This document shows positions 50,112-64,000 of a stretch of 64,000 bases of DNA, in pieces. The stretch comes from Paracoccus lichenicola. GTDB lineage: Bacteria > Pseudomonadota > Alphaproteobacteria > Rhodobacterales > Rhodobacteraceae. The stretch is from the NCBI RefSeq assembly GCF_009708075.1, contig NZ_WMBT01000001.1, forward strand, positions 62,001 through 126,000. The letters are read 5' to 3'. The translations under genes and the position numbers were made by a program. The notes beneath the pieces are model-generated. The model ran no database searches and had not been told where the DNA came from. It worked only from the letters and a program-made list of their open reading frames with translations. Position 1 is the first letter of the stretch. Each line of letters opens with the position of its first letter.

Positions 50112-50204
50112 AAGTTGTATAAAAAACAGCAATCTAGATGATTTTGGCTGGGGCGGTAGGACATTATTACAGAATTTTTCAACGCTCTGAAATCGCCTAG
50201 TTTA

Positions 50205-50233
50205 TTGACTATAAACGCCTTTTCACCCTAGAA
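50205..50233 (+). promoter_or_regulatory. Promoter of the integrase gene
   Basis: TTGACT (50205-50210), 17-base spacer and TAGAAC (50228-50233) resemble a sigma-70 promoter about 60 bases before the integrase ATG. Two direct copies of GTTCCGGT (50235-50242 and 50248-50255, 13 bases apart) lie just downstream and may bind a regulator or directionality factor. Confidence 0.55.
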
Positions 50234-50292
50234 CTGTTCCGGTCAGGTGTTCCGGTTTGATGATCCGGCAGCCCCCTTGAAAGGTATCCGGG

Positions 50293-52095
50293 ATGGCGCG
50301 AGTTTCCTATCTCTATCGGCGCGGTGCGATCTACTATGCGCGCATTGACGTGCCCAAAGACCTTGTGTCTGTGACCGGCACAACGACTTGGAAGGAGTCG
50401 CTTCGCACGAAGGATGAGACTGAGGCGAAGCGCCTGCTGCCCGCCGTGGTGTTGCGTTGGCAGCGTGAATTCGACGACCTGCGCGCCCGGCGGGCGCTGA
50501 TGCCGGGCGACCGGGAAAACGCGGTGTGGGATCATTACAGCGACACCCTGGCCCGTGATGATCAGGAACGCGCCATGCTTCCCGGTGAAGCCGAGATCGA
50601 CGCGGCAACAGAACAGGCCGTGCAGCGCGTCCATGCCGAACGCATCGACATACACGACCCTCTGGCGATGATGGACGTGATTCTCGACGTGCAGGTGGTG
50701 AAGGAAGCCGCCAGCTTCAACACGAACGCCCGCAAGGTGAAGCTGGCCGAAATGCGGAAGCATCTGGCGAAAGGCGAAACTGCGCTGATCGCCGATGAGG
50801 TTGACGACTACCTGCGCCGCAACCGGCTTTTCGTGGATCACGGAACGCCTGACTGGATCAGCCTTGCCCGGCACATGATGCGGGCCGAGATTGAGGCGCT
50901 ACAGCGCACCTTAGAGCGCGACCAGGGCGACTACACCGGCCAGCCTGCCGACCCGCTGGTGAAGCCCGCCACCGGCCCCAGGCGCGAGACAGCGAAACCG
51001 GGCGAGTCCATCATGGAGATCTTCGAGATTTTCGCCCGCGAGAACCCGCGCGGCGTGGCAAAGGATCGCGTTGATCAGTGTCGCCGGGACATCGGCACAT
51101 TCATTGAACTTGTCGGTGCCAGCTTCCCTATCGCCAAGATCAGCAAGGCCGAGGTCCGCGACTGGAAGCAGCTTCTGGTCAAGTATCCCGTGAAGGCCAC
51201 CGAGACGAAAGCCTTTGCCGGGATGAACATTCAGCAGATAGTCAAGAAGAACGAGGAAGTGGGCAAGCCGGTGATCGCTGACCGCACCGTGAACCGCTAC
51301 CTGTCCAGCCTGTCGGCGTTCCTATCTTGGGCGGTGAACAACGGCTATTTGGAGCGCAACCCTATCGAGGGGCTGATGCTCAAGAAGGAAGCCAAAGCCC
51401 CTACCCTTCCTTTCAAAACCGATCAGCTACAGACACTGTTCAAGTCGCCCTGGTTTGCCGGATGCCAGAGCGCTGATGAGTGGCGGAATGTGGCAAAGCC
51501 CGGCAACGTCCTGATCCGCGATCATCGCTTTTGGGTGCCGCTGATCATGCTTTTCTCGGGCGCACGTCCCGGCGAGATCGGCCAACTTGCCTTGTCGGAC
51601 GTTCGGCAAGAGCATGGGCATTGGATCATGCATATCACGACCGAAGGCGACGAAACCGTAGAAGGTAAGAGCGTCAAGACGGCTGGCTCTATGCGCGTGG
51701 TGCCTGTCCATCCCGAACTGATCAGCCTTGGCTTTATCGACTACCACGCGAAACGGTTGGAGGAAGGCGGTAATGCCTTGTTCCCAGGCGCGGTGCGAAA
51801 TGAGCGCGGGCAAATGTTGGCAGATGTGTCGCGGGAATCTGGACGCTACTTGACCAAGATCGGTTTGAAGAACGGGCGCGGTCTGTCACTCTATTCCTTC
51901 CGGCACGGTGCTGCTGATGCCCTGCGCCGGGCTGGGTATCTCGACAATCAATTCGGCTTCATCCTGGGACATACTGAAGCAAGCATGACTGGGCGTTATG
52001 GAATCATGCCGCAAGGGATGCTGGAACAGCGTGTGGAACTGGTGAAGGCGATTGCCTATCCAGAACTGGACCTGTCGCACCTTATGCCAAATTAA
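50293..52095 (+). CDS. Tyrosine site-specific integrase with DUF6538-like N-terminus
   Basis: Inserts and excises the element by strand exchange. 600 residues: N-terminal MARVSYLYRRGAIYYARIDVPKDL is the DUF6538-like domain; residues about 235-345 are the core-binding SAM-like domain; the catalytic domain has Arg in FSGARPGEIGQL, box II as SLYSFRHGAADALRRAG, and the end ILGHTEASMTGRYG with the tyrosine nucleophile. Box II has Tyr where H-x-x-R usually has His, a variant seen in a subset of phage integrases. The product is unusually long for the family. An AAAGG site precedes the ATG. Confidence 0.92.
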   Translation: MARVSYLYRRGAIYYARIDVPKDLVSVTGTTTWKESLRTKDETEAKRLLPAVVLRWQREFDDLRARRALMPGDRENAVWDHYSDTLARDDQERAMLPGEAEIDAATEQAVQRVHAERIDIHDPLAMMDVILDVQVVKEAASFNTNARKVKLAEMRKHLAKGETALIADEVDDYLRRNRLFVDHGTPDWISLARHMMRAEIEALQRTLERDQGDYTGQPADPLVKPATGPRRETAKPGESIMEIFEIFARENPRGVAKDRVDQCRRDIGTFIELVGASFPIAKISKAEVRDWKQLLVKYPVKATETKAFAGMNIQQIVKKNEEVGKPVIADRTVNRYLSSLSAFLSWAVNNGYLERNPIEGLMLKKEAKAPTLPFKTDQLQTLFKSPWFAGCQSADEWRNVAKPGNVLIRDHRFWVPLIMLFSGARPGEIGQLALSDVRQEHGHWIMHITTEGDETVEGKSVKTAGSMRVVPVHPELISLGFIDYHAKRLEEGGNALFPGAVRNERGQMLADVSRESGRYLTKIGLKNGRGLSLYSFRHGAADALRRAGYLDNQFGFILGHTEASMTGRYGIMPQGMLEQRVELVKAIAYPELDLSHLMPN

Positions 52096-52100
52096 ACTAG

Positions 52101-52158
52101 TCTGTTGTAAATTAGCAACACATGTGTTATAAAAGGCACAGTTGAGTTTGTTGCGAGT
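52101..52158 (+). promoter_or_regulatory. Leader A: promoter and shared operator-like motifs before the portal gene
   Basis: TTGTAA (52105-52110), 17 bases, TATAAA (52128-52133) form a sigma-70-like promoter. A perfect 12-base palindrome AACACATGTGTT (52117-52128) abuts the -10. TCTGT (52101), GCAACA (52115-52120) and TGTTGCGAGT (52149-52158) recur in the same order and partly the same spacing at 58758-58801. TGTTGCGAGT ends 6 bases before the GTG start and may act as the ribosome site. Confidence 0.6.
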
Positions 52159-52164
52159 TTTCTG

Positions 52165-53379
52165 GTGTCCATCCTGTCGCGCCTTGGCCGTGCATTCGGC
52201 CAAGGCCAGCCCATCGAACAGAAGTCTGTCACCCTGACCGATCCCGAGGCTTTCGGGCTGTTCGGCGTCAAGCCCGTCGCCAGCGGCGTGAACGTGACCC
52301 ATGCCACTGCCATGCGCGTCCCTGCCGTGGCCTGCGCTGTTGGTTTGATCTCGGAAACCTGTGGCGCGCTTCCCTTCAAGCTGCACAAGCGCGAGGCCCG
52401 CGCAGCCGTCAAGGATCACCCGGCCTATCGCCTAATCCATGACGAGGCGAACCCCTGGACCAGCGCCGAAGATCTGCGCGAGGCCCTAACGCTCGACGCC
52501 CTGCTGCGCGGCCATGGCTTTGCCCAGGTGGTGCGCACCAGCGAGGGCAAACCGATGGAACTGCACCGGATGGACCCCGGCGCGGTCAGCGTTGAATATG
52601 ACACCTTGGGCGAACCGTCCTATCGCGTGCGCCTGCAAGGCGGCGGTGACGTGATCCTGGCCTATCAGGATGTGCTGCACGTTTCAGCTTTCGGCGGTGC
52701 CAGCCCGATCACCCTGGCCCGCGAGGCCATCGGCCTTGCCATCGCCGCCGAACAGCACCTTGCAGGCTTCTACAGCAACGGCGGGCGTCCTTCGGGCATC
52801 ATCAAGCATCCGAACAAGTTGGACGCAGAAGGCGCGAAAAAGATCGCCGCAAGCTGGTTTCAGACTCATGGCGGCAAGCAGGCAGGCGGCACCGCCGTCT
52901 TGGACGAAAATATGGACTATGTGCCGATCAGCGGCACCCATACCGATGCGCAATTCCTGGAGAACCGCCTGGAGCAGGTGCGCGAGATCGCCCGCGCCTT
53001 CAGGATCCCGCCAACCCTTTTGTTCGAACTGTCGCGCGGCACCTGGAGCAACACCGAGGAGATGGGCCGGCAGTTTCTGACCATGACCCTGCGGCCTTGG
53101 TTGAAGCGCTGGCAGGCCGCCTATGCACGCGTGCTGCTGTCGCCCGAAGAACGCGCCCGCCTCTATGTCGAAGCTGTCACCGACGATCTGCTGACGACCG
53201 ACTTTGCCGCCCGTTCCACGGCATATAGCCAGTATCGCAGCGCTGGTGTCCTAACTGCCAATGAGGTGCGCGCCGGTCTGAACCTGCCGCCCATGCCCGA
53301 AGGCAACAGCCTGTCCAATCCCTACACCACGACCGGCGCAGAACCCGCCCCGGCCAATCCCCAGGATGATGACGAATGA
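52165..53379 (+). CDS. Phage portal protein, HK97 type
   Basis: Forms the dodecameric ring at the capsid vertex through which DNA enters. 404 residues from a GTG start (MSILSRLGRAFGQG), with family text VTHATAMRVPAVACAVGLISETCGALPF, YQDVLHVSAFGG and the helix EQVREIARAFRIPPTLLFEL. C-terminal LTANEVRAGLNLPPMPEGNSL is typical. It comes straight after the integrase, where a standard phage would have regulators. The end overlaps the next gene by 4 bases (ATGA). Confidence 0.93.
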   Translation: MSILSRLGRAFGQGQPIEQKSVTLTDPEAFGLFGVKPVASGVNVTHATAMRVPAVACAVGLISETCGALPFKLHKREARAAVKDHPAYRLIHDEANPWTSAEDLREALTLDALLRGHGFAQVVRTSEGKPMELHRMDPGAVSVEYDTLGEPSYRVRLQGGGDVILAYQDVLHVSAFGGASPITLAREAIGLAIAAEQHLAGFYSNGGRPSGIIKHPNKLDAEGAKKIAASWFQTHGGKQAGGTAVLDENMDYVPISGTHTDAQFLENRLEQVREIARAFRIPPTLLFELSRGTWSNTEEMGRQFLTMTLRPWLKRWQAAYARVLLSPEERARLYVEAVTDDLLTTDFAARSTAYSQYRSAGVLTANEVRAGLNLPPMPEGNSLSNPYTTTGAEPAPANPQDDDE

Positions 53380-53687
53380 TCGACCATAGCGTCTTTTTCG
53401 GCGATGGGCCGCGCCTGTTTCGTTTGACCGATCCAATGGTGATCGAATTGGAACGCCTGACCGATACCGGCATCGGTGGCCTGTTCAGCCGTATGACCCG
53501 CAACGACTTCCGGCTGTCCGATCTGATCGAGGTGATCCGCCTGGGCCTGATCGGTGGCGGCACCAACCCCGAGGAGGCCGCCCGGCTGGTCGCGACATAC
53601 GCCAAGGATCGGCCAATCGGGGAAATCCTGCCCTTGGCCCTGGACGTGCTGGACGCCCGGTGGAGCGGATCGGAGACCGCAGAATGA
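53376..53687 (+). CDS. GTA gp10-like tail assembly chaperone (TAC_11 type)
   Basis: 103 residues. The text FRLTDPMVIELERLTDTGIGGLFSRM and LSDLIEVIRLGLIGGGTNPEEAARLVATY matches the GTA_gp10/Phage_TAC_11 family of tail assembly chaperones, which keep the tape measure soluble during tail building. These normally sit between the tail tube and tape measure genes; here the gene lies between portal and capsid. It overlaps its neighbours on both sides with ATGA junctions. Confidence 0.8.
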   Translation: MIDHSVFFGDGPRLFRLTDPMVIELERLTDTGIGGLFSRMTRNDFRLSDLIEVIRLGLIGGGTNPEEAARLVATYAKDRPIGEILPLALDVLDARWSGSETAE

Positions 53688-53809
53688 ATCCCGTTCACGC
53701 CCAGATCGCCCGCCATGCCGAAGGGCTGCCAGATGAGGCCCTGACCCTGGCCGGTGCCGTGCTGAAGCGCGCCCTGCGCGAGAGGAAAGAGGTCCAGGCT
53801 AATGACTGA
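53684..53809 (+). CDS. Small hypothetical phage protein (41 aa)
   Basis: Starts MNPVHAQIARHAEGLPDEAL and ends in a basic helix (KRALRERKEVQAND). It overlaps the previous gene by ATGA and the protease-capsid gene by 8 bases. Its position and tight coupling support translation, but no family is recognised. Confidence 0.65.
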   Translation: MNPVHAQIARHAEGLPDEALTLAGAVLKRALRERKEVQAND

Positions 53810-55367
53810 GGATCTGCAACACCTGGAAACCAAGGCCACGCTTTCCGTTGCCGAGACAGGCGAGATCACCGGCTTGGCTTGGCCGTTCGGCACGGTTGAT
53901 CTTGTCGGCGACAGTATCACGCCCGGCGCGTTCGACCGGCCCGCATCCCTGCCCATGCTGGCTGAACATGACAGCGGCCAGACAATTGGCGTCTGGTCCG
54001 AAATCACCGAAACCGATGAAGGGCTGACCGTCAAAGGCAAGCTGCTGATCCATGACGTGCCCCGCGCCCGCGAGGTTGCCGACCTGATCCGCCAAGGCGA
54101 GATCGGCGGCTTGTCCATCGGTTTCGTCACCCAATCCGCGCAGCGACACCAGAAGGGCCGCAACATCACCGCCCTGTCGCTGCGCGAGATCAGCGTCGTC
54201 AAGACGCCCTGCAATCCGGGGGCGGCTGTTCGCACCCTGAAATCTGCCATTCCCGCATCACAGGAGAATCCAAGCGTGGAAAACGAAGACCTGGCCCTGA
54301 AGGCCGACCCCAAGACCCCGGCCAATGACGCGCCGGTCATTGACCTGAAGGCATTCGAGGCCGTCAAGTCGCGCCTGGACAAGCTGGAAGCCAAGGGCAA
54401 CCGTCCTGGTGCACCGGCCATTGTGCTTGGCGAACAGCCTGAACGGAAAGCCTTTGCGAACTACCTGCGCGTTGGTGAGGCCCGCATGGACGCGGCCGAA
54501 ACCAAGGCGCTTGCTGTCGCGGCCAATGCCAACGGCGGCTATCTGGTGCCGCCCGAATACAGCGCGGAAATCCTGAAGCTGCTGACCGAAATGTCGCCGC
54601 TGCGCCAGTATGCCGATGTGCAGACTGTCACCAGCCCGGAAATCACCTTCCCGACCTTGCTGTCTGGCGTCAACGCGTTCTGGACCGAAGAAGGTGCGGA
54701 CATGACCGTCAGCGAACCCACGTTCGGGCAGGTCAAGATCGCCAACCATGAACTGTCCAGCTTCTATGTCGCCAGCAACAAGGTGCTGGAAGACAACGCT
54801 TATGACCTTGAAGGCGTCATGAGCCGCGAGATTGCTTCTGGCTTCGCGAAGGTCGAAGGTCTGGCTTTCGTCAAAGGCACCGGCACCGGCCAGCCGCGCG
54901 GCCTGATGACCGCCCCCGGCGTTGCCGAGATCAGGACCGGCGTTGCAGCGGCCTTCCCGGCATCGAACCCGATGGACGTGCTGATCACCATGCAGCACAG
55001 CATCCCGTCCTTCCATGCCCGCAGCGCGGTCTGGCTGATGAACCGCACGACGCTCGCGACCATCCGGCGCTTCAAGGATGCGCAAGGCCAGTATCTTGTC
55101 ACCGATCCGAAGGACGGCGGCGTCATGCGCCTTCTGGGCAATCCCATCGTGGAAATGCCGGATATGGACAACGTGGCGGCAGGCACCGCGCCCATCATGT
55201 TCGGCGATCTGTCGGGCTATCGTGTCTTCGACCGGGTTGACCTGTCGATCCTGCGCGACCCCTACACGCTGGGCACCAAGGGGCAGGTTCGGTTCATCGC
55301 CCGCAAGCGCGTCGGTGCCGATCTGACCCATGCCGACCGCTTCGTGAAGCTGCGCGTGGCCGCCTGA
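53802..55367 (+). CDS. Fused HK97 prohead protease and major capsid protein
   Basis: 521 residues in one frame. Residues about 1-150 are the S78 (U35-type) prohead protease: ITGLAWPFGTVDLVGDSITPGAFD, catalytic His in LAEHDSGQTIG, Ser in GEIGGLSIGF. Residues about 160-225 form a helical scaffold-like delta region. From about 240 the HK97-fold capsid follows: GGYLVPPEYSAEILKLL, FWTEEGADMTVSEPTFGQVKI, and the end RVGADLTHADRFVKLRVA. Self-cleavage would release the mature capsid protein. Protease and capsid are usually separate genes, but fusions are known. Confidence 0.93.
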   Translation: MTEDLQHLETKATLSVAETGEITGLAWPFGTVDLVGDSITPGAFDRPASLPMLAEHDSGQTIGVWSEITETDEGLTVKGKLLIHDVPRAREVADLIRQGEIGGLSIGFVTQSAQRHQKGRNITALSLREISVVKTPCNPGAAVRTLKSAIPASQENPSVENEDLALKADPKTPANDAPVIDLKAFEAVKSRLDKLEAKGNRPGAPAIVLGEQPERKAFANYLRVGEARMDAAETKALAVAANANGGYLVPPEYSAEILKLLTEMSPLRQYADVQTVTSPEITFPTLLSGVNAFWTEEGADMTVSEPTFGQVKIANHELSSFYVASNKVLEDNAYDLEGVMSREIASGFAKVEGLAFVKGTGTGQPRGLMTAPGVAEIRTGVAAAFPASNPMDVLITMQHSIPSFHARSAVWLMNRTTLATIRRFKDAQGQYLVTDPKDGGVMRLLGNPIVEMPDMDNVAAGTAPIMFGDLSGYRVFDRVDLSILRDPYTLGTKGQVRFIARKRVGADLTHADRFVKLRVAA

Positions 55368-55372
55368 AGCCA

Positions 55373-56020
55373 ATGACCGTGCGGCCCGCCTTCGAGACGA
55401 TCCTGGAGCATGACGGCGCTGTCGTCATGCTGCGCGCGTCCTTGCGGGCTGCCGTCGCCATCGACAACCTGCCGGGCGGCTTCCCCCAGGTCTGGGAACA
55501 GATCGCCCGGCAATCCCTCTCGACCATCCGGGCGGTGTTACTCGCCACCGCAACGGATCGGCAGGACGCGCAACGCTTCCTTGCCGCCACCGCCGACAAG
55601 CCCCTGGCGTCCTTCCTGGCCGATGCCCAGGCGGCTTGTCTGGCGGTCCTGGCTGCCCTTCTCAAAGCAGGTGACGACAGCGCAGCGAATGCGCCGAGCC
55701 AAGGCAGAGCCAGCGACAAGCCCATGTCGTTGAACGAGTATCACAAGACCCTGTTTCAGTATGCGACCGGCTGGCTTGGCTGGTCGCCTGCTGAGACCTG
55801 GAACGCCAGCCCTGCCGAGATCGAGGCCGCGTTCGAGGCCCATGTTGACCGGCTGGTGAAGCTGACGCCCGGCCTGTCCGATGCCCATGACACAGGCAGC
55901 GCCCGCCCGACTACAACGAACGAATACACGCCCGAACGCCTGCGCGAGATCGAAAACCTAGGCTATGACCCCGCCTTTGACCGTCAGGCGCTGCGGCAAC
56001 TGCAAGCGAGAAACCAATGA
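55373..56020 (+). CDS. Tail-assembly-chaperone-like protein, two-part
   Basis: 215 residues. The N-terminal half (LRASLRAAVAIDNLPGGFPQVWEQIA, STIRAVLLATAT) is a helical domain resembling chaperone-type proteins of GTAs. After a linker, YHKTLFQYATGWLGWSPAETWNASPAEIEAAFEAH resembles the Phage_TAC_6 segment. It may be an in-frame counterpart of the gpG/gpGT pair made by frameshift in other phages; this is inference. It overlaps the following gene by ATGA. Confidence 0.6.
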   Translation: MTVRPAFETILEHDGAVVMLRASLRAAVAIDNLPGGFPQVWEQIARQSLSTIRAVLLATATDRQDAQRFLAATADKPLASFLADAQAACLAVLAALLKAGDDSAANAPSQGRASDKPMSLNEYHKTLFQYATGWLGWSPAETWNASPAEIEAAFEAHVDRLVKLTPGLSDAHDTGSARPTTTNEYTPERLREIENLGYDPAFDRQALRQLQARNQ

Positions 56021-56475
56021 CGATTGACCCCTTCGGCGGGCGTATCCCGGCCAGCACCCAACTGCCGCCCTACAGCAACGCCCTGACCATCACGCCGGAC
56101 GACGATACCGATCTGCCGGTCATCCCTTCGGCCCTTTATATCCCCGCCAGCATTCCGGCGGTCTGGAACCCCGATCTGCCAAGCAGCACAAACAATCCTG
56201 ACCAACCCGGCGACGTTGTGACTGACAGCATGGGCGAGATTGTTGACGATGCGGCAGGCGAGCCGACCGAGATCAGCAACGAATTTCCTTGGCGTTGGGG
56301 CGGCGGAGCACGGCCTAACCGCATCATAATGATTGCTCAGAACGGCAACCGGCTGTCCATTGACGTGCCGAGCATCGTCAACCTGATGGCTGCGCCCGCC
56401 CTGATCTTGGCGCTACGCCCGCGCCGGATCCTTCGCACCGGCACGACGCTGCACCGCGTCACCTTGCTCTGGTGA
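56017..56475 (+). CDS. Spike base protein of the Rcc01079 type
   Basis: 152 residues. The beginning PFGGRIPASTQLPPYSNALTI and then DDDTDLPVIPSALYIPA, and the end LRPRRILRTGTTLHRVTLLW, match the two blocks of the R. capsulatus GTA head-spike base family (RCAP_rcc01079). Between them is an insert of about 60 residues that the usual short family members lack. Such proteins anchor fibres that bind the capsule. The functional match is by pattern only. Confidence 0.6.
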   Translation: MTIDPFGGRIPASTQLPPYSNALTITPDDDTDLPVIPSALYIPASIPAVWNPDLPSSTNNPDQPGDVVTDSMGEIVDDAAGEPTEISNEFPWRWGGGARPNRIIMIAQNGNRLSIDVPSIVNLMAAPALILALRPRRILRTGTTLHRVTLLW

Positions 56476-56481
56476 TCCGCC

Positions 56482-57159
56482 ATGATGAGAAACATTCACC
56501 TGCATGGCGCACTTGGCGCTGAATTCGGAAAGACCTATTGCTTTGACGTGAACAGCGTGGGCGAAACCATCGCGGCGCTTCAAGCCAATTTTCCTCGCTT
56601 CGCCAACGCCATCCGCAACGGCTTCTACAAGATCGTGCTGGGCAAGACGGTGCGTCAGGGTCTTGCCTTGCGCGAAAACCAGCTTGGCGTGGACCTGGCC
56701 GATCGGGCCATCCATATCGTGCCGACCGTGGCGGGCCGCAAGAACGGCGGCCTGGGCAAGGTGATCGCGGGCATTGCCCTGATCGGCCTTTCCATGGTGA
56801 CAGGTGGCGCTGCGGGGGCGCTGATGGCTACGCCTTTCGCGGGCGGCACAGTCGGCGCAATGGTGGGCAGCATGGGCCTTGCAATGGCTGTCAGCGGCGT
56901 TTCGGCCATGCTGGCACCAGAACAGAAAGCCGAAGATCGCAAAGAATCCTTCACCATGTCCGGTCCTTCATCGGTCATCAGGGAAGGCAACATCGTGCCC
57001 ATCGCCTACGGTGAAGTCGTCACTGGCGGCTACATGATCTCGGGCAGCGTGGTCATCAACGGCCCGGCGGGCGACTTGCCGCCTGCCGTTGCGACCAACC
57101 CGAACAACGGTGCAGGCGGATCGCTGCAAGATGATCGCATTTACGGCGGCAATGGCTAA
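56482..57159 (+). CDS. Tail assembly protein, lambda gpI-like
   Basis: 225 residues. MRNIHLHGALGAEFGKTYCFDVNSVGETIAALQANFPRFA is the ubiquitin-like N-terminal domain of lambda gpI. Two glycine-rich hydrophobic segments (about 95-150) follow, then SSVIREGNIVPIAYGEVVTGGYMISG, typical of the family. It helps build the tail tip. In standard phages it lies downstream of the tape measure; here it lies 5 kb upstream of it. Confidence 0.85.
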   Translation: MMRNIHLHGALGAEFGKTYCFDVNSVGETIAALQANFPRFANAIRNGFYKIVLGKTVRQGLALRENQLGVDLADRAIHIVPTVAGRKNGGLGKVIAGIALIGLSMVTGGAAGALMATPFAGGTVGAMVGSMGLAMAVSGVSAMLAPEQKAEDRKESFTMSGPSSVIREGNIVPIAYGEVVTGGYMISGSVVINGPAGDLPPAVATNPNNGAGGSLQDDRIYGGNG

Positions 57160-57493
57160 GCCGCCCCGTCTTTGTGGTTGCGGCCAGATCGTGCCGGCCG
57201 ATCAGCTTTGCGCCTGCCAGCTCGACCGCCAGCGCGAGCGGAAGGCCCGGCATGACCGCAGGCGCCCGTCTGCCGCCCAACGTGGCTATGACAGCGAATG
57301 GCGCAAGCTGCGGGCCGAATTCATCCGCCTGCACCCGTTCTGCGCCTTCTGTGGTGCCGAGGCAGAGCATGTTGACCACAAGGAACGGCACCGGGGCAAC
57401 CGCGCCCTGTTGCTGTCTTGGACCAACCTGCAAAGCCTCTGCGCCCATTGCCACAACAGCGTGAAGCAAAGGCAGGAACGGGCCGCAGGATGA
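57152..57493 (+). CDS. HNH endonuclease
   Basis: 113 residues with a leading zinc knuckle (CGCGQIVPADQLCACQ), then SEWRKLRAEFIRLHPFCAFCG, HVDHKERHRGN and WTNLQSLCAHCHNSVKQR, the HNH nuclease with paired cysteines. In HK97-type phages such enzymes aid terminase cutting and are encoded beside terS. Here terS is 2.8 kb away. The start at 57152 overlaps the previous gene by 8 bases; 57131 is an in-frame alternative. Confidence 0.88.
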   Translation: MAKPPRLCGCGQIVPADQLCACQLDRQRERKARHDRRRPSAAQRGYDSEWRKLRAEFIRLHPFCAFCGAEAEHVDHKERHRGNRALLLSWTNLQSLCAHCHNSVKQRQERAAG

Positions 57494-58239
57494 GCCGCGA
57501 ACTATGGCAGGCGGTGTTGCTGCGCACGGTGGCAGATGCCGTCCTGGGCGTTTCTCAAGAGTCAAATCGCGACACCCGCATTCGCATCTGCGAGGAAGCG
57601 CGGCGCTACCTGACCAGTCCAAGCCGCGACCTGAGTGAAGTCTGCGCCTTGGCCGACATGGACATGAACGCGGTGATAGAGAAGATGCGCAACCAGATCG
57701 CCCAGGCACCCACGCCCAAGGAATTGGCCGACAATCCCGGCCGAAGCATCGCTACCTTCACCAAGGCCGCGGCAAAGCCCAAGCAGAAGCGCATCCCCTT
57801 CCCGGATCGGCAATTCACGTTCGACGGCATCACCAGAACGGCGGCAGATTGGTGTGCCCGCACGGGCATCGCCCTACAAACAGCACAGTGGCGCATCAAT
57901 CAGTCCTGGGCACCAGAACGCGCATTCACACTGACAGCCGAAGACGCAAGGGCAGAGCATAGGGCATCGGCCCGCCGGTCCTTCAACATGAACAGTGCGG
58001 AGATCAGTGCCCGTATCAAGGAAGGTCTGCGCCGGTCTGCCGCCATGAACGGCGCACCGCATAAGAGAGGCACAGAGCCAACCTTATACCAGTATGATGG
58101 TGAAGCCCGTTCACTGGCGGAATGGTCCGAGATCACCGGCATTGGAAAGAACACGATCTACAAACGCATCACGGTGCAAGGCATGACCTTTGCCCAGGCT
58201 ATCGAGACGCCAGTGGGCAAAGGTCAAAAGACTGCTTAA
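57490..58239 (+). CDS. Phage protein with two homologous helix-turn-helix-like repeats
   Basis: 249 residues. The N-terminal domain (LWQAVLLRTVADAVLG, to about residue 95) is unrecognised. Two similar units follow: FTFDGITRTAADWCARTGI-x-TAQWRINQSW (about 118-150) and YQYDGEARSLAEWSEITGI-x-NTIYKRITVQGMTFAQAI (about 205-240). They resemble NUMOD/homeodomain-like DNA-binding units in homing endonucleases and phage proteins. It follows the HNH gene by ATGA overlap, so it may target that nuclease or regulate transcription. Function unproven. Confidence 0.65.
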   Translation: MSRELWQAVLLRTVADAVLGVSQESNRDTRIRICEEARRYLTSPSRDLSEVCALADMDMNAVIEKMRNQIAQAPTPKELADNPGRSIATFTKAAAKPKQKRIPFPDRQFTFDGITRTAADWCARTGIALQTAQWRINQSWAPERAFTLTAEDARAEHRASARRSFNMNSAEISARIKEGLRRSAAMNGAPHKRGTEPTLYQYDGEARSLAEWSEITGIGKNTIYKRITVQGMTFAQAIETPVGKGQKTA

Positions 58240-58559
58240 TTGGTCTTAGGGATATATTGGTAATGTTCGCGTCCGATAAAAACGCCAATCATACCCAGAG
58301 TAGCCAAGATTGCAGAAATCAGAGCAATGACCCCTTTTGTCAATGCCGACTTTTCGGCGCTTTCCGCTGAATAAGTATATCCATTTGCATAACTGTAAGC
58401 AGCCTTCGCTGAATCACTTACGTATTCCATATAGGCATATCCAAATATCATTGGCATTATCAGCATCAAGATTAAACCCCACCAGCCAAGCGCCGTGAGC
58501 CTTTGACGAATTGGATAGGATAGTGCCGAGCTAACGAGTGGGCTTTCCATTTGAGACAT
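58236..58559 (-). CDS. Small opposite-strand membrane protein, moron-like
   Basis: 107 residues with two membrane helices: WWGLILMLIMPMIFGYAYM (about 27-46) and GVIALISAILATLGMIGVFIG (about 75-95), joined by a Tyr/Ala/Ser-rich loop. The start at 58559 (MSQMESPLV) is used; the frame upstream begins only with TTG. The DNA is AT-richer than the neighbours, and this is the only minus-strand gene in the element, the usual marks of a lysogenic-conversion gene (moron). Its stop overlaps the convergent gene's stop. No family recognised. Confidence 0.65.
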   Translation of the reverse strand: MSQMESPLVSSALSYPIRQRLTALGWWGLILMLIMPMIFGYAYMEYVSDSAKAAYSYANGYTYSAESAEKSALTKGVIALISAILATLGMIGVFIGREHYQYIPKTN

Positions 58560-58571
58560 GACTGCAATCCG

Positions 58572-58592
58572 ACAGAGTGTTGACAACTCTGT
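58572..58592. promoter_or_regulatory. Palindrome in front of the opposite-strand membrane protein gene
   Basis: ACAGAGT (58572-58578) and ACTCTGT (58586-58592) are perfect inverted repeats around GTTGACA, 13 bases upstream of the minus-strand start. It could be an operator or a leader hairpin. Confidence 0.45.
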
Positions 58593-58757
58593 GAGCTATG
58601 CACGGCCAACCAGAAACAGCAACGGCTGAAATGAGACGATGTTGAGGATAAAAGGGAGGGGGTATCTTCCAATTTGTGCCCTGTGGACAGAACCGGCGTG
58701 TGGAGTCGCGCGCAAGACAGGTCGAATATAACTTTTCCACCTAGCGTTGCGACCGCA

Positions 58758-58801
58758 TCTGTGATATTTTTGCAACAGTAATGATTACACCTGTTGCGAG
58801 T
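58758..58801 (+). promoter_or_regulatory. Leader B: shared operator-like motifs before the head-tail connector gene
   Basis: TCTGT (58758-58762), nine bases, GCAACA (58772-58777), then TGTTGCGAGT (58792-58801), which ends 6 bases before the ATG at 58808. This repeats the layout of the leader at 52101-52158. GCAACAG and CTGTTGC (58772-58778, 58791-58797) form an inverted repeat. The rest of the 220-base gap to the opposite-strand gene has no clear gene; a TATAAC at 58727 could be a -10 but lacks a good -35. Confidence 0.55.
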
Positions 58802-58807
58802 ATGCCC

Positions 58808-59116
58808 ATGCCTGCCCTGCCGTTGCCTCTCGTGAAGGCGCATCTTGTCGTTGACCACAGCGAAGACGACCAACTTCTGAACCACTACGGCAATGTCGCA
58901 GCCGCATGGGTAGCGGCCTACACAGGCCAAGAATTCGATGCCGATAACGCCCTGATGGTGCAGGCCGGCTTGCTGTTGACGGCAACCCAATATGAAAGCC
59001 GCGAGGCCGTCACCTTCGCCAGTGCCTATCAACTGCCCTTCGGCGTCCATGATCTACTGTCGCCGCTGAAAGCCCGCGTCACCGGCCACCAGCCCGAGCC
59101 TGAGGCCGCAGAATGA
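58808..59116 (+). CDS. Head-tail connector protein, gp6-like
   Basis: 102 residues from MPALPLPLVKAHLVVDHSED, ending in AVTFASAYQLPFGVHDLLSPLKA. Both the opening (leucine-lysine-alanine-histidine pattern) and the LPFGVHDLL-type close fit the HK97 gp6/gp15-like connector that docks on the portal. ATG 58808 is chosen since the shared TGTTGCGAGT motif then has the same distance as at the portal gene; 58781 and 58802 are in-frame alternatives. First gene of the second structural block. Confidence 0.8.
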   Translation: MPALPLPLVKAHLVVDHSEDDQLLNHYGNVAAAWVAAYTGQEFDADNALMVQAGLLLTATQYESREAVTFASAYQLPFGVHDLLSPLKARVTGHQPEPEAAE

Positions 59117-59568
59117 GCATCACCCGGCAGTCATCCGACGCTCTGGCAAAGCGCTTGGCCGCCATCCCGCGCGAGATCGTCGCCCAAGTGCAGCCTGCCC
59201 TGATCAAGGGCGTGCAGAAAGTCGCGGCGGATGCCCGCACCCTGGCAGAGGCATCGCGCAGGACGGGCGAGACGATTGACTCAATCGAGACGACCGGCCC
59301 GAACTCGACCACGCCCGCCTATGCCCAGGGCGGTGCCACCCGCACAACTCACGAATTGCAAGCGGTGGTGACTGTCGGCAACCCTGATGTGCGCACCGCG
59401 CACTTGGTCGAATTTGGCACTGATGAGCGCCACCACCAGGACGGCGCCAGCACCGGCACCATGCCCGCCACACCCTTCCTGCTGCCCGCGTGGCGGCTCA
59501 ATCGTGCCCGCGTTCAAAGGCGTATCAATAGCGCAGTCAACAAGGCCATCCGTGAGGCCAGCCAATGA
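59113..59568 (+). CDS. HK97 gp10 family neck protein
   Basis: 151 residues starting MSITRQSSDALAKRLAAIP, with a basic helical front and the diagnostic end RTAHLVEFGTDERHHQDGAS followed by MPATPFLLPAWRLNRARVQ. Members join head and tail. Overlaps the previous gene by ATGA and the next by 4 bases. Confidence 0.88.
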   Translation: MSITRQSSDALAKRLAAIPREIVAQVQPALIKGVQKVAADARTLAEASRRTGETIDSIETTGPNSTTPAYAQGGATRTTHELQAVVTVGNPDVRTAHLVEFGTDERHHQDGASTGTMPATPFLLPAWRLNRARVQRRINSAVNKAIREASQ

Positions 59569-59978
59569 TTCCGACCCTGGCGCTTCAAGAGGCCATCCGC
59601 GCCCGGCTGCTGGCTGACCCGGTGATCACCCAGCATATCGAACCGGCCCGCATCCGCATGGCGGCGGTGCGGCCTGAGCAACTGCCCGCCATCCACCTGT
59701 CACCGAGCCGAACAGAAATCCTTGGCCGGGCAAGCGGTGGTCAAATTGTGGCCGAGGTTAGCCAGCTTTTACACGTCTGGGCCGTGCAGGATGGTTCCGG
59801 CACCGCCGAAAGCATCGCGGCTGCCGCCTTGGTCACGCTCATGGACGCGCCCGACGCTCAAGGCTTTGACTTTGACTCTTGGGAACGCCCGGCCCTGGTC
59901 TGGTCTGAACAACCTGCGTTCGATGGTGCTGCGCACGCTGCCATCAGCCTGCGCGCTGTCATCCGGTGGCACGAATGA
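59565..59978 (+). CDS. DUF3168 tail completion protein
   Basis: 137 residues: MIPTLALQEAIRARLLADPVITQHI, then ARIRMAAVRPEQLPAIHLS and the strand pattern ending AISLRAVIRWHE. DUF3168 proteins (gp17-like) close the tail end that meets the head. Translationally coupled on both sides. Confidence 0.88.
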   Translation: MIPTLALQEAIRARLLADPVITQHIEPARIRMAAVRPEQLPAIHLSPSRTEILGRASGGQIVAEVSQLLHVWAVQDGSGTAESIAAAALVTLMDAPDAQGFDFDSWERPALVWSEQPAFDGAAHAAISLRAVIRWHE

Positions 59979-60292
59979 GGGCGGGCAAGCTGCAAGCGCG
60001 TATCCAGATCGAACGCGAACAGGAAGCGGTCAGCGACAACGGCCTTGTGCGCCAAGTCTGGCTGCCGGTCCTGACGACGCGCGCCGAGATCAAGGAAGCG
60101 ACCACGACCGAATTCTTGACCGGCCAGATCGAAGGCAACCAGAACAAGGTGGTTTTCCTGATCCGCTGGCCGTCGCAGCCGATCAGCACGGGCGACCGCC
60201 TGACCCACAACGGCGCGGTCTGGAACATCACCGGCTTGTCGGAGATCGGCCGCAAGCGCGGCCTGGAGATCAGGGCAGAGGCGGTTGCATGA
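59975..60292 (+). CDS. Phage head closure (head-tail adaptor) protein
   Basis: 105 residues: MRAGKLQARIQIEREQEAVSDNGL, VWLPVLTTRAEIKEAT and DRLTHNGAVWNITGLSEIGRKRGLEI match the SPP1 gp16-like adaptor family. Usually this gene precedes the gp10-like gene; here it follows DUF3168. Overlaps by ATGA at both ends. Confidence 0.87.
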   Translation: MRAGKLQARIQIEREQEAVSDNGLVRQVWLPVLTTRAEIKEATTTEFLTGQIEGNQNKVVFLIRWPSQPISTGDRLTHNGAVWNITGLSEIGRKRGLEIRAEAVA

Positions 60293-60684
60293 GCGCTGCG
60301 CATCTTCGCGGGATCAAGCCAAAGGTCAGCGCCGATCAACAGCCGCTGATCCGTGCCCCGAAGCCGCCTGCCTATTTTTCGACCTATGCCCGCGACGAAT
60401 GGCGGCGGATCATGCCAACGCTGATCAGCCGGCGCGTGATCTGCAAGGCCGATCTGGCCCAGGTCGAAACCTACTGCGAGATGACCGGCCTTGTCCGGCA
60501 AATTGCCCATGAGCGCCAGCTTGCGGGCGGCCTGATCGACGTGAAGCTGTTCGGCGTCCAGAACCGGGCGGCGCAGACTGCCCGCCAGATCGCTGCCACC
60601 CTTGGCCTTGATCCTGTCAGCCGGGCGCGCATCGGATCAGCAGCGCCCGAGGATGACGACGACAACCCCCTGGCGGTAGCCTGA
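60289..60684 (+). CDS. Phage terminase small subunit, P27 type
   Basis: 131 residues: MSAAHLRGIKPKVSADQQPL, PKPPAYFSTYARDEWRRIMPTL, and helical text up to QIAATLGLDPVSRARIG, as in P27-family small terminases that recognise the packaging site. Its stop and the terL start share one base (TGATG). Confidence 0.87.
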   Translation: MSAAHLRGIKPKVSADQQPLIRAPKPPAYFSTYARDEWRRIMPTLISRRVICKADLAQVETYCEMTGLVRQIAHERQLAGGLIDVKLFGVQNRAAQTARQIAATLGLDPVSRARIGSAAPEDDDDNPLAVA

Positions 60685-62330
60685 TGGCTTCGACCTTCCC
60701 GGCCTGGATCAGCGACGGATCGGCCATCCCTGATCCTCTCGGGCATGGGCAACGTGCCGTCACGTTCCTGCGCCGTCTGCGCCATCCCAATGCCGCCAAC
60801 ACCAACGCCCCGCCGGTGGTGGCCAACACGAACAGCCATCCGCGCGCGTTCCAGCTTTACGACTGGCAAGAGCGGATCGTCAGGCGCATCTATGGCCCGC
60901 GCAACCTGGATGGCAGCCGAACCGTCAAGACCGTGTTCCTGATGCTGCCCAGGGGCAACCGCAAGACCAGCTTGGCCGCTGCCTTGTCGCTCTTGCACCT
61001 GTTCGGCCCCGAGGCCCGCCCTGCCGGTCAGGTGATCTTTGCCGCATGTGACCGGGAACAGGCCAGCATCGGCTTTCGCGAGGCCGCCAACATCATCCGT
61101 GAAGATCACCGGCTGTTGCGGGCGGTGACGATCCGCGATGCCTTCAACAGCAAGAAGCAGATCACCTTTCCGGCCAAAGGTTCGACCTTAACCGCCCTTG
61201 CCAGCGATGGCGGCGCAGCGCACGGCTTGACGCCTGCCTTCACCCTGATCGACGAGGTTCACGCCTGGAAAGGCCGCGACCTATGGGAAGCCATCAAGAG
61301 CGGGCAGGCCAAGACTGACGACACGCTGATGGTGATCTGCACGACCGCCGGGCGCGGTGCCGAAGGGCTGGCGGCCGATCTATTCGACTATGCCCGGCGC
61401 GTGGCAATGGGTGAGATCGTCAACCCGGAATTCCTGCCGGTCCTGTTTATGGCCGAACCGGATGACGACTGGCAGGACGTGGCGACATGGCACAAGGCCA
61501 ATCCCGGCTTGGCCTATGGCTTTCCATCCATGTCGGGCCTGCGCGCCCTGGCGAAAGAGGCCGAAGGCAACCCGGCGGAACTTGCCAGCTTCAAGCAATT
61601 CAACTTGAACGTGTGGCAGGCCAACAGCCGCGACCCGCTCTTTGACCTGGGCACCTATGACGCCCGCTGCCTGGACGACGACGACGCCGACCTGGAAGCG
61701 CTGCCCGCCTATATCGGCTGCGACATGAGCGTGTCGGGCGACCTGACCGCCGTTGCCATCGCCTTCCGGCACGATGACGGCCAGATCACCCTTCGGTCGC
61801 GCGTCTTTGTTCCTGGTGAAGACCTGCGCGCCCGTGGTGATCGCGATGGCGCACCCTATGAGCGATGGCGCGATGACAACCTGATCACGGTCTGCCCTGG
61901 CCCGATCATTGACCATGGCACCGTCGAAGATCATATCCGCGACCTATGCGGAACCTTCGACGTGCAGGAAATCGCCTTCGACCCGCATCTAGCCCGCGTC
62001 ACCATGCAGCACCTGCACGACGATGGGCTGCCGGTCTTTGCCTTTCCGCAGCGCCCGCTGACGATGGGCGTTGCCGCCGGTGACATGGAGAGGATCGTCA
62101 CCGGGCGGCTGATCCGCCACGATGGCGACCCCGTGCAGCGCCATCACTTCGAGAACGTGGTGACATCGCGCAACCCGACCAGCGGCCTTGTCAGGATGCA
62201 CAAGGCCCGCACCGCCAGCCGGATCGACGCTGCCGTGGCATCTGCCATGGCCGTGTCCCGCGCCACGACCGCCCATAACCAGAAATCCCGATATGACAGC
62301 CCCGAAGTTTCGGGCCTGTTTGTTATTTAA
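60684..62330 (+). CDS. Phage terminase large subunit
   Basis: ATPase and nuclease that pumps DNA into the capsid. 548 residues. The P-loop is MLPRGNRKTS, a variant of the (A/P)RGxGKS form with Arg before Lys-Thr. Walker B is FTLIDEVHAW, and the nuclease starts at IGCDMSVSGDLTAVAI. The family is the YmfN/HK97 type. It lies at the end of the connector block instead of ahead of the portal gene. Confidence 0.93.
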   Translation: MASTFPAWISDGSAIPDPLGHGQRAVTFLRRLRHPNAANTNAPPVVANTNSHPRAFQLYDWQERIVRRIYGPRNLDGSRTVKTVFLMLPRGNRKTSLAAALSLLHLFGPEARPAGQVIFAACDREQASIGFREAANIIREDHRLLRAVTIRDAFNSKKQITFPAKGSTLTALASDGGAAHGLTPAFTLIDEVHAWKGRDLWEAIKSGQAKTDDTLMVICTTAGRGAEGLAADLFDYARRVAMGEIVNPEFLPVLFMAEPDDDWQDVATWHKANPGLAYGFPSMSGLRALAKEAEGNPAELASFKQFNLNVWQANSRDPLFDLGTYDARCLDDDDADLEALPAYIGCDMSVSGDLTAVAIAFRHDDGQITLRSRVFVPGEDLRARGDRDGAPYERWRDDNLITVCPGPIIDHGTVEDHIRDLCGTFDVQEIAFDPHLARVTMQHLHDDGLPVFAFPQRPLTMGVAAGDMERIVTGRLIRHDGDPVQRHHFENVVTSRNPTSGLVRMHKARTASRIDAAVASAMAVSRATTAHNQKSRYDSPEVSGLFVI

Positions 62331-62344
62331 AAAGTGAGACAACC

Positions 62345-64000
62345 ATGAATGCAGTAACGCCCGGCCTGATTATCGACGTTGAAGCGAGAATCAACAAACT
62401 CGAAAGAAGCTTGAAAATCGCCAATGAGAAACAGCGACGTGCCGCCGATCAAATGGAAAGGCGAGCGAAACAATCCGCCGATAAAATCAATGCCACCTAC
62501 GGCCAGATGGGCAACGGCATTGCCGCACAATTCGGAAAGCTGCAAGGGCTGACCCTGCCTTTCCTTGGTGGTCTGGCAGGTGGCATTGCTGCCGGTGGTG
62601 CAACTGCCCTGATTGGCAACCTGAACCAAGTCGCCGAAGGCATGGCCAATATCGGCAATGAGGCTGCCCGTGCTGGTCTATCAACGCAGGCTTTTCAAGA
62701 ATGGTCATTCCTGGCGAAACAGAACCGGATCGACGTTGACGCCCTGATTGATGGTTTCAAAGAACTGAACCTGCGCGCTGACGAATACATTGTGACCGGC
62801 GTTGGCCCTGCCGCCGAAGCTTTCACCCGGCTTGGCTATCGTGCCGACGACCTGAAGCAGAAGCTGAAAGACCCTTCGGCCCTGATGTTGGAGATCCTTG
62901 GCCGGCTTCAGAGTCTGGACAAGGCCGCGCAGATCAGGATCGCGGATGAGGTTTTCGGCGGCACCGGTGGCGAGCGCTTTGTGGAATTGCTGGCCCAAGG
63001 TCAGGGCGCGCTGCGGGCGACTATCGACAGGGCGCACGAAACTGGCGCGGTGCTGGATGCCGAGCTGATCGCGAAAGCGGACCAGATCAACCGCAAGTTT
63101 AGCGAGTTGACCACCGGCGCGGCCAACTTTGCCAAGGCAGCGGTGGTCAACTTGGCCGCTGCTGGCACCGAACTGACTGACTTCCGCGCCCGGCTTGACG
63201 GCATCTTTGACTCCGAGGCCGAAGGGCGCGCCGTCCTGGGTGATGAACTCTATGACACCCTGTCCCGTGACCGTGACGCGGTGGACGATCAGGCCGAAGC
63301 CCTGACCCGATTGAATGAACGCTATTCCACCCTTGCCGAGGAAGCAGGCCGCGCGGGCGTGGCGATGCTGGATGCCATCAGCAGGCTCGACAGCTTGGGC
63401 TATGACACGGCAGCCGATGCCCTGCGCGTGGCCTATGAGCAGATGCAGAACCTGGTTCAAGCCTTCCACGATGGCGAGATCAGCGGCGAGGATTTCACGA
63501 CGCAGCTTGGCGAGATCGAAGCCGCGGCGTCCCATGCCTTTGCCACCCTAGAGGCGGGCGACCGCGTTCAATTCTCTGGCGTCATGAGCCAGCTTTCCCG
63601 CCTTGGCGGCGTGATCGCCTCTGTCACCAGCTTGGCGAACAGCATGGGCGCGGCCATTGCCCGCGCGGCTGGCACGGCACCGGACCAGAAGGCCACGCAG
63701 GCCATGCGGGACCGGCATGCAGCCGAGGCCGCCAGCATGGATTCCATGGAGGTGCAACGCGAGGCCCTGGATGGCTTCACCCAGGCCGAACAGGCGCGCA
63801 ATGCCGCCACTAGCGAACAACTGGCCCTGCAACGCGAGATCGAGGCCGTCAGGAGGCGCGCAGGCGAGTCTGGAGCGACCCTGACCGATCAACAGGCCAC
63901 AGAGACCGCACAAGCCGCCATCGCTGCCGAGGAGGCCCGCGCAGCCGCTGACAGGGCATCCCGCGTCGGTGGTGCCAGCAAGCCCGCCGGTGGCGGTGGT
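62345..64000 (+). CDS. Tail tape measure protein, 3' end cut by window
   Basis: 552 codons without a stop up to the window edge. Begins MNAVTPGLIIDVEARINKLER with a heptad-rich helix, then a Gly/Ala hydrophobic stretch (about 62-95), and the segment ADEVFGGTGGERFVELLAQGQ followed by AHETGAVLDAELIAKADQINRKF, common in tape measures of alphaproteobacterial phages. The rest is long alpha-helical text rich in Ala, Gln and Glu. GTGAG lies 8 bases before the ATG. It sets tail length in siphoviruses. Confidence 0.85.
   Translation, partial: MNAVTPGLIIDVEARINKLERSLKIANEKQRRAADQMERRAKQSADKINATYGQMGNGIAAQFGKLQGLTLPFLGGLAGGIAAGGATALIGNLNQVAEGMANIGNEAARAGLSTQAFQEWSFLAKQNRIDVDALIDGFKELNLRADEYIVTGVGPAAEAFTRLGYRADDLKQKLKDPSALMLEILGRLQSLDKAAQIRIADEVFGGTGGERFVELLAQGQGALRATIDRAHETGAVLDAELIAKADQINRKFSELTTGAANFAKAAVVNLAAAGTELTDFRARLDGIFDSEAEGRAVLGDELYDTLSRDRDAVDDQAEALTRLNERYSTLAEEAGRAGVAMLDAISRLDSLGYDTAADALRVAYEQMQNLVQAFHDGEISGEDFTTQLGEIEAAASHAFATLEAGDRVQFSGVMSQLSRLGGVIASVTSLANSMGAAIARAAGTAPDQKATQAMRDRHAAEAASMDSMEVQREALDGFTQAEQARNAATSEQLALQREIEAVRRRAGESGATLTDQQATETAQAAIAAEEARAAADRASRVGGASKPAGGGG

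Follow-up and report, generated by a model that had tools for sequence, protein, structure and literature searches.

A 17.5-kb tRNA-integrated element of Paracoccus lichenicola, apparently a member of an undescribed family of capsid- and tape-measure-encoding satellites

Capsid-forming phage-inducible chromosomal islands (cf-PICIs) are described as small integrative elements with their own capsid, protease, portal, connectors, HNH protein and both terminase subunits, terS and terL (PMC10690885, PMC10803314). The phage-inducible chromosomal island-like elements (PLEs) of Vibrio cholerae take the capsid of their helper phage and encode a tape measure protein (TMP) and a hub, which replace those of the helper in chimeric tails; a chaperone gene of the satellite is adjacent (PMC12987554). 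We analysed a stretch of 64,000 nucleotides of Paracoccus lichenicola, hereafter the window (contig C11, 62001–126000, of a 3.7-Mb host genome; coordinates without a contig or locus name are window positions). A phage satellite of 17.5 kb, complete and integrated in a tRNA-Gln gene, probably overlaps its right end, with the left four fifths inside the window. The element combines its own head set of cf-PICI type (capsid, protease, portal, connectors, terS, terL and HNH protein) with the PLE-type trait of a satellite-encoded TMP and tail assembly chaperone (TAC). The likeness to PLEs is at the level of gene content, and the element, unlike them, encodes its own portal, protease-capsid and terminase. 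Apparently, it belongs, in well-preserved form, to an undescribed family of satellites that encode both capsid and TMP.

PLE11 virions contain the satellite's TMP and hub alongside the other tail parts of the helper, and deletion of tmp lowered transduction by ~99.9% (PMC12987554). The same report (2026) describes PLEs as the first satellites known to incorporate a TMP of their own into tails, and the legend of its Extended Data Fig. 10 mentions a putative tmp in some cf-PICIs. The Vibrio element cf-PISP is a capsid-forming satellite-plasmid of ~15.8 kb, described in PMC13230959 as being without tail genes, whereas a 17.5-kb Paracoccus marcusii plasmid of the family described here has a TMP gene. 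The Streptomyces satellites MulchRoom and MiniFlayer (14.8 and 17.4 kb) have their own capsid and terminase and heads of ~43 nm (PMC10690885). They differ in their actinobacterial helpers and terminal repeats, and the term 'tape measure' does not occur in the main text of PMC10690885.

Compared with cf-PICIs (~14 kb), members of the family are typically 17.9 kb long and have alphaproteobacterial hosts. The TMP, two chaperones and a tail terminator are part of the family's core, unlike in cf-PICIs, which were compared by their description only. The regulation and replication genes of PICIs are AlpA and primase. Their use as a criterion is taken in part from the methods for phage-inducible chromosomal minimalist islands (PMC10803314). 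Neither AlpA nor a primase was found in the element. For the host genome as a whole, no AlpA exceeded the threshold and the sole Prim-Pol lies in another island; other primase families were not searched genome-wide. As neither was found in the element, the family is not filed as cf-PICI.

Boundaries and genes of the element

A perfect 17-bp repeat occurs twice at a distance of 17,537 bp (positions 2146 and 19683 of the extended stretch L005, corresponding to 50145 and 67682). The repeat on the right makes up the 3' end of an intact tRNA-Gln(TTG) gene. The full integrative element measures 17,537 bp and extends 3.7 kb to the right of the window. We checked for empty sites in 25 loci with the adjacent gene for adenine deaminase, 24 in congeners and one in the host. 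Three congeners carry the same tRNA-Gln (75/75 identical) 25–40 bp past the adenine deaminase gene, together with a matching right flank (82–84% over ~840 bp); therefore, an unoccupied integration site exists. The other 21 congeners had no tRNA-Gln within the flank inspected. With its size, att sites and empty site, the element is a discrete integrative unit far below phage size, as is general for satellites. The motif TGTTCCGGT was found at 50235 and 50248, just inside attL, and at 67622, just inside attR; the element has no further copy on either strand. These copies are possible arm sites of the integrase.

Gene calls followed open reading frame (ORF) rules, not a trained caller, and families were assigned with Pfam and PHROGs. 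Structural models were made with AlphaFold2 (AF2), and their predicted local distance difference test score (pLDDT) is given. The features are as follows:

50145–50161, no strand: attL, 17-bp core TGGCTGGGGCGGTAGGA
50293–52095, +: tyrosine integrase, immediately left of the portal gene (DUF6538 PF20172, 4e-19; Phage_integrase PF00589, 5e-7; PHROG integrase)
52165–53379, +: portal protein (PF04860, 5e-97)
53376–53687, +: short TAC of the TAC_11 / GTA gp10 family (PF11836, 1e-24; AF2 model with a beta-hairpin and five helices, pLDDT 91)
53802–55367, +: prohead protease-major capsid fusion (S78 protease PF04586, 3e-22; HK97 capsid PF05065, 6e-73)
55373–56020, +: putative long TAC of 215 aa (C-terminal TAC_6 match under the curated cut-off; AF2 model, pLDDT 85)
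56017–56475, +: 152-aa protein without assigned role (only a 28-residue PHROG tail-fibre match, E 4e-6)
56482–57159, +: lambda gpI-like tail assembly protein (phrog_32, 1e-42), accessory in the family
57089–57493, +: small Cys-rich HNH protein (PF01844, 4.5e-5), its family present in 47/47 elements
57418–58239, +: second HNH-family ORF (phrog_3377)
58658–58741, +: conserved non-coding 85-bp element, candidate cos/packaging site (profile E 2e-12 in the window)
58781–59116, +: gp6-like head-tail connector (PF05135, 4e-8)
59113–59568, +: HK97 gp10-like neck protein (PF04883, 7e-6; phrog_5)
59565–59978, +: gp17 / DUF3168-type tail terminator, for tail completion (PF11367, 4e-12; phrog_176 tail terminator, 3e-4)
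59966–60292, +: head closure protein (family homologues; relatives are annotated as phage head closure protein)
60289–60684, +: P27-type small terminase terS, 131 aa from the ATG at 60289 (PF05119, 1e-13)
60684–62330, +: large terminase terL (PF20441, 1e-36; PF03354, 8e-20)
62345–64891, +, leaving the window at 64000: TMP, 848 aa (phrog_10574, 5e-99)
64869–65243, outside the window: gpM-like minor tail gene (PF05939, phrog_14)
67682–67698, outside the window: attR, identical 17-bp copy in tRNA-Gln(TTG) on the minus strand

An earlier note, made from the letters of the window, had described a phage-like, non-decaying element with tightly overlapping genes in an unusual order. Its gene list is present, intact and in the same order by Pfam and PHROGs, save for three entries. 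The terS start at 59722 was a long-ORF artefact, the ATG at 60289 agreeing with the length of the terS family; an 82-aa 'moron' was not backed by any family; and nothing was identified as a repeat protein. The integrase was missing from that list. All confirmed genes of the window lie on the plus strand, and most overlap or almost touch, the exceptions being gaps of ~115 bp ahead of the capsid gene and ~410 bp ahead of the gp6 gene. Ten core genes including that of the TMP were compared with three relatives, and the ratio of non-synonymous to synonymous substitution rates was 0.12–0.44 in 29 comparisons (the 30th was saturated), which points to purifying selection. To the right of the window, where the note had expected attR, a tail tube and lysis genes, attR was found, with no recognised tube or lysis gene before it. 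Between the gpM-like gene and attR, there are only a 239-aa protein of an unnamed PHROG and two short ORFs without family.

In the element, Pfam and PHROGs recognised no gene for a tube, fibre, lysis, replication or a repressor, although unnamed ORFs remain. Beyond the gpI- and gpM-like genes, no tail tip gene was recognised by these libraries or by comparison with two siphophages and the gene transfer agent (GTA) of the host. In the libraries, the names of PF11836 and phrog_8985 refer to a tail tube. The host GTA has a separate tube-like gene just ahead of its PF11836 gene, and the models of the PF11836 protein and of the 215-aa protein show a beta-hairpin followed by helices, mainly helical and with no beta-sandwich. 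In the model of the 215-aa protein, the N-terminal beta-hairpin and helices resemble the short chaperone, and the C-terminal helices are TAC_6-like. We read the two proteins as chaperones rather than as tubes, namely as a gpG-like and a gpGT-like protein whose separate genes flank the capsid gene. Structure searches with both gave weak matches only, and the direct fold match to the HK97 TAC was also weak.

A family with a fixed gene order

A scan of GTDB genomes with the terminase alignment gave 208 relatives and a scan of IMG/VR gave 513. The best 80 of each were examined, and the two sets share some loci. The GTDB relatives belong to Rhodobacterales and Hyphomicrobiales, save a few records with vague or doubtful labels. 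The closest terminase beyond the host was found in Paracoccus fontiphilus (scaffold L064), and a congener genome (G316:C150) had a match at practically the same coordinates. Within the genus, terL relatives at E ≤ 1e-100 were present in 9 of 61 genomes, the host included.

A locus was considered usable when portal, terL and TMP were present (69 of the 80 in GTDB; 58 in IMG/VR). The family order is portal, short TAC, protease-capsid, long TAC, gp6, gp10, gp17, closure, terS, terL, TMP. It was kept in 67/69 usable GTDB loci (all 11 genes in 62) and in 58/58 usable IMG/VR loci (all 11 genes in 54). The two exceptions, L133 and L139, have gp10-tube-TAC before closure-terS-terL-TMP, which is nearer to the normal phage order. 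Since the order recurs in so many other loci, it is due neither to chance nor to misassembly. The earlier note had suggested a lineage rebuilt from modules; the order is indeed unlike that of HK97-like phages and of the host's own GTA cluster, but the element belongs to a large family whose order is fixed. This order occurs in many uncharacterised elements, and the three regions of deposited phages that were inspected did not have it. Outside the scan, it was found on the Sinorhizobium meliloti megaplasmid psymB, on a P. marcusii plasmid (17,494 bp, carrying a Rep gene but without an annotated integrase) and on Methylorubrum populi pMPOP02 (23,392 bp, with a tube gene). Thus, the family exists in plasmid and integrated forms. 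In the P. marcusii plasmid, a 135-aa homologue of the 152-aa protein occupies the same place. The order is the constant layout of a widespread and apparently unnamed family of small alphaproteobacterial genetic parasites.

The TMP gene was present in 74/80 GTDB loci with terL, and four of the six misses lay ≤1.6 kb from a contig end. This figure is free of the selection that affects the 42 sized elements, which were chosen by the presence of a portal and of a TMP hit >60 bits, so that the count of 47/47 for portal, TMP and terL holds partly by construction. Att sites were tested in 67 loci, 13 of 80 having been dropped without a portal or without a TMP hit >60 bits. An exact repeat of 14–49 bp at a tRNA end was found in 42 of the 67. 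The 42 att-bounded elements measure 15,766–19,089 bp (median: 17,906 bp), and this range of 15.8–19.1 kb is in keeping with a fixed head volume. The remaining 25 loci had no repeat at a tRNA, some of them because the flank was too short. Searches for exact att repeats in P. versutus and G252 found none, and G016 and P. ferrooxidans gave only 14- and 13-bp matches, of doubtful meaning. The P. fontiphilus scaffold (17,974 bp, with an integrase-like hit at its right end) was checked as an excised circle; it had no terminal overlap, and its integrase is different (51 bits). No exact terminal repeats ≥15 bp were found in the 80 IMG/VR stretches, some of which were cut from longer contigs.

Two siphophages served for a comparison of tail genes: the tail and lysis proteins of Sinorhizobium phage phi2LM21 and the tail proteins of Rhodobacter phage RcapNL were searched against the ORFs of 181 sequences (160 terL loci and 21 further ones, some being the same locus twice). 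The tape-measure-type proteins matched 136, 119 and 145 of the 181 sequences, down to 1e-92, and the tube, fibre and lysis proteins matched none. The other proteins gave one gpM-like hit (G250), two terminator-class hits and weak chaperone hits in 10 sequences. A gpM of the M. populi type matched 31 sequences, and a tube gene of the M. populi type was found in eight. On a terminase tree of 90 rows, a clade of 73 rows with a support of 100 is without the tube, and the tube is present in 7 of the 17 other rows, which suggests loss of the gene at the base of the main clade, if the midpoint root of the tree is taken. The tree came from a quick search with some loci doubled, and the tube label needs at least three changes on the starred branches. 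A scan of IMG/VR with the TMP only gave five loci, all on contigs <18 kb and none with a helper. The TMP of the S. meliloti element (L040:26614-29334) carries a VanY D-Ala-D-Ala carboxypeptidase domain; in a plasmid database, this part of a phage-type tail protein is entered as a predicted vancomycin-resistance gene.

The non-coding region upstream of gp6 is conserved as well. Nine-base words in it were common to up to 33 of 43 regions, compared with at most 6 in five shuffles. A profile of the 85-bp site was trained on 33 regions and searched in 101 sequences, some being the same locus twice. The site was found once, and never twice, in 86 of them at E ≤ 1 (83 below 0.001). Outside the training set, it was found in 53 of 68 at E ≤ 1 (50 below 0.001). 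All 59 IMG/VR stretches >12 kb had it. The profile search did not find it in two phages, the GTA, two other host islands and three distant plasmid or genome relatives, nor in seven family loci, several of which are cut short; the start of the RcapNL genome bears no resemblance to it. In G046, G047, G250 and at least seven congeners, the site adjoins the portal gene and starts the structural module. Across 125 genomes of the genus, the host included, it was found in 31 genomes at 38 places. The simplest reading is that of a candidate packaging (cos) site. Sites in terL-negative congeners were considered as further hitchhikers without head genes (20 of the 38 sites examined). This did not hold for G350, G340, G324 and G390, which keep head genes and are without the terminase-TMP part; the picture for G298, G349 and G394 is ambiguous.

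The 42 elements bounded by att sites contain 359 accessory ORFs, of which the 146 with ≥120 aa were scanned. Many have matches to defence families, any one of which occurs in one or two elements: BglII-type restriction-modification, TIR, KAP/PDC-S49, AIPR, Abi, DpnI, PD-T4-2, SieB and GmrSD. Among the matches listed (25 of 58 PHROG, 25 of 85 PADLOC and 25 of 38 Pfam families), there was no lysis or tube family, and gpI-type genes occurred twice and a gpM-type gene once. The G016 element has a type II restriction-modification pair between HNH and gp6.

Apparently new are the family, its 85-bp candidate packaging site (conserved and single-copy) and a sibling of 17 kb without head genes (described below). 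In a literature search that did not reach most subscription papers, the founding cf-PICI paper among them, no title or abstract start named this alphaproteobacterial family. Prophage 1 of Loktanella hongkongensis, circular with 17,661 bp and an S78 protease in a survey of Rhodobacteraceae prophages (PMC8224337), is a possible unrecognised member, judging by its described size, host and protease. The Paracoccus prophages in PMC6536676 measure 36–58 kb among the rows shown. A side observation concerns L056 (G294:C1 18816-24989), where a portal, a protease-capsid fusion and a 1128-aa ORF that resembles a tape measure by eye stand in a row, with no family terminase match nearby.

Proposed mechanism and other readings

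We consider it likely that the element is a phage satellite of the capsid-forming kind, whose head and tape-measure complex are its own and are connected to tail parts of a helper phage. Members of the family seem to make both the head and the ruler of the tail themselves; another phage is probably needed just for the remaining tail parts. The mechanism is inferred from gene content and from the published precedent of the Vibrio PLEs. On entry or induction of a helper phage, the element would excise and be replicated. Its terminase would cut at the 85-bp site and fill its own small head. Its TMP, coated by the two chaperones, would start on the helper tail tip, and the helper tube protein would wrap around it. 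At 0.15 nm of tail length per residue, the satellite ruler of 848 residues would set a length of ~125 nm. The satellite's own terminator and neck would then join the hybrid tail to its own head, and the particles would be freed by helper lysis.

The element is very probably not a self-sufficient phage. A very small tailed phage with tube, tip and lysis proteins too diverged for recognition would suit the several 3' ORFs per element that have no family or only an unnamed one, the tube gene of divergent relatives and the gpI- and gpM-like genes of the element. Tube, tip and lysis genes should be universal in such a phage, yet beyond the TMP gene no gene family is common to more than 20 of the 47 elements. 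Moreover, the terminases that rank best among 50,697 deposited phage records show only ~30% identity, and all 2009 matching records are <60% identical. We therefore regard this reading as unlikely. It is quite improbable that the TMP and chaperones act as decoys, blocking helper tail assembly without being built into the satellite's own particles. The TMP is a known target of satellite interference (PMC12987554), and defence genes are reported to interfere with tail or virion assembly (PMC11364771, PMC10884400). Against a decoy, the element also retains its own tail terminator and neck, and the VanY peptidase domain in the TMP of a relative suits an injected, working TMP.

Some copies in congeners are without the terminase-TMP part and the host sibling has a split TMP gene, as a decaying prophage or a chance deletion product might. 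Intact att sites, fixed order and size, and purifying selection largely refute this, and we give it very little weight; misassembly or decay of the region was rejected on synteny, att sites and selection. Equally remote is a derivative of a GTA, or a parasite of the host GTA's tail. The earlier note had considered a GTA-related lineage, of which only distant homology of head and chaperone proteins stood: portal, protease, capsid, gp6 and TAC are distantly homologous to those of the RcGTA-type GTA of the host, and the sole PF13550 tail tip of the host genome sits in that GTA. An RcGTA-like agent is a non-mobile cluster of the type portal-protease-capsid...-tube-TMP-tip. The element has a different order, an integrase and att sites, and terL relatives at E ≤ 1e-100 occur in only the few genomes of the genus given above. 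The TMP-sized ORF (218 aa), tube, hub and megatron of the GTA have no match in the 47 elements, and the TMP of the element resembles those of siphophages. For lack of matches to its tail proteins, the GTA tail was rejected as helper and is kept only as a weak rival.

Among the best 80 loci of each set, nearly all of the well-covered ones combine a head of their own with a TMP and chaperones of their own. If the satellite model is right, tail manipulation would be a core strategy of a widespread alphaproteobacterial satellite type whose members bear anti-phage cargo. With the relatives that have a tube gene and with the single-copy 85-bp site, both the packaging signal and the evolution of tail parasitism become open to direct tests.

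A sibling without head genes and other islands of the host

A second 85-bp site in the host genome lies at C33:12374-12456. It appears to belong to a sibling element (C14:22838-27036 and C33:1-12952) of ~17.1 kb plus any assembly gap, bounded by a 46-bp repeat at C14:22838 and C33:12907, the latter in a tRNA-Thr gene. The TMP gene of the sibling is in two halves (378 and 422 aa) at the start of C33 and the end of C14, with a DNA identity to the window TMP of 74 and 77% over 763 and 409 bases. The sibling also holds an integrase, an exonuclease-type gene and two overlapping ORFs that match a primase/helicase family. Its HNH protein is 39% identical to the small HNH protein of the window over 113 residues and matches ORFs in 47/47 elements. 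No family portal, capsid or terminase match was found in the sibling. Tentatively, this could be a two-tier parasitism, a possibility we hold to be rather doubtful. The sibling, with a TMP gene spanning the assembly gap, would be packaged in trans by its capsid-making kin and would thus be a satellite of a satellite, and the window element would be the satellite that makes its own heads and hybrid tails.

Two further islands were noticed. The one at C33 ~72740-82800 (L281/L282) has an integrase-like ORF, an AlpA-like protein (below the cut-off, E 0.002), a Prim-Pol, TerL, an HNH-like protein, an HK97 capsid and, by eye, a portal-like ORF. It looks like a second capsid-encoding type, a cf-PICI in an alphaproteobacterium. 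The third small island, at C11 ~610900-619500 (L279/L280), has a gp6-like connector, TerL and an integrase, with capsid- and portal-like ORFs by eye.

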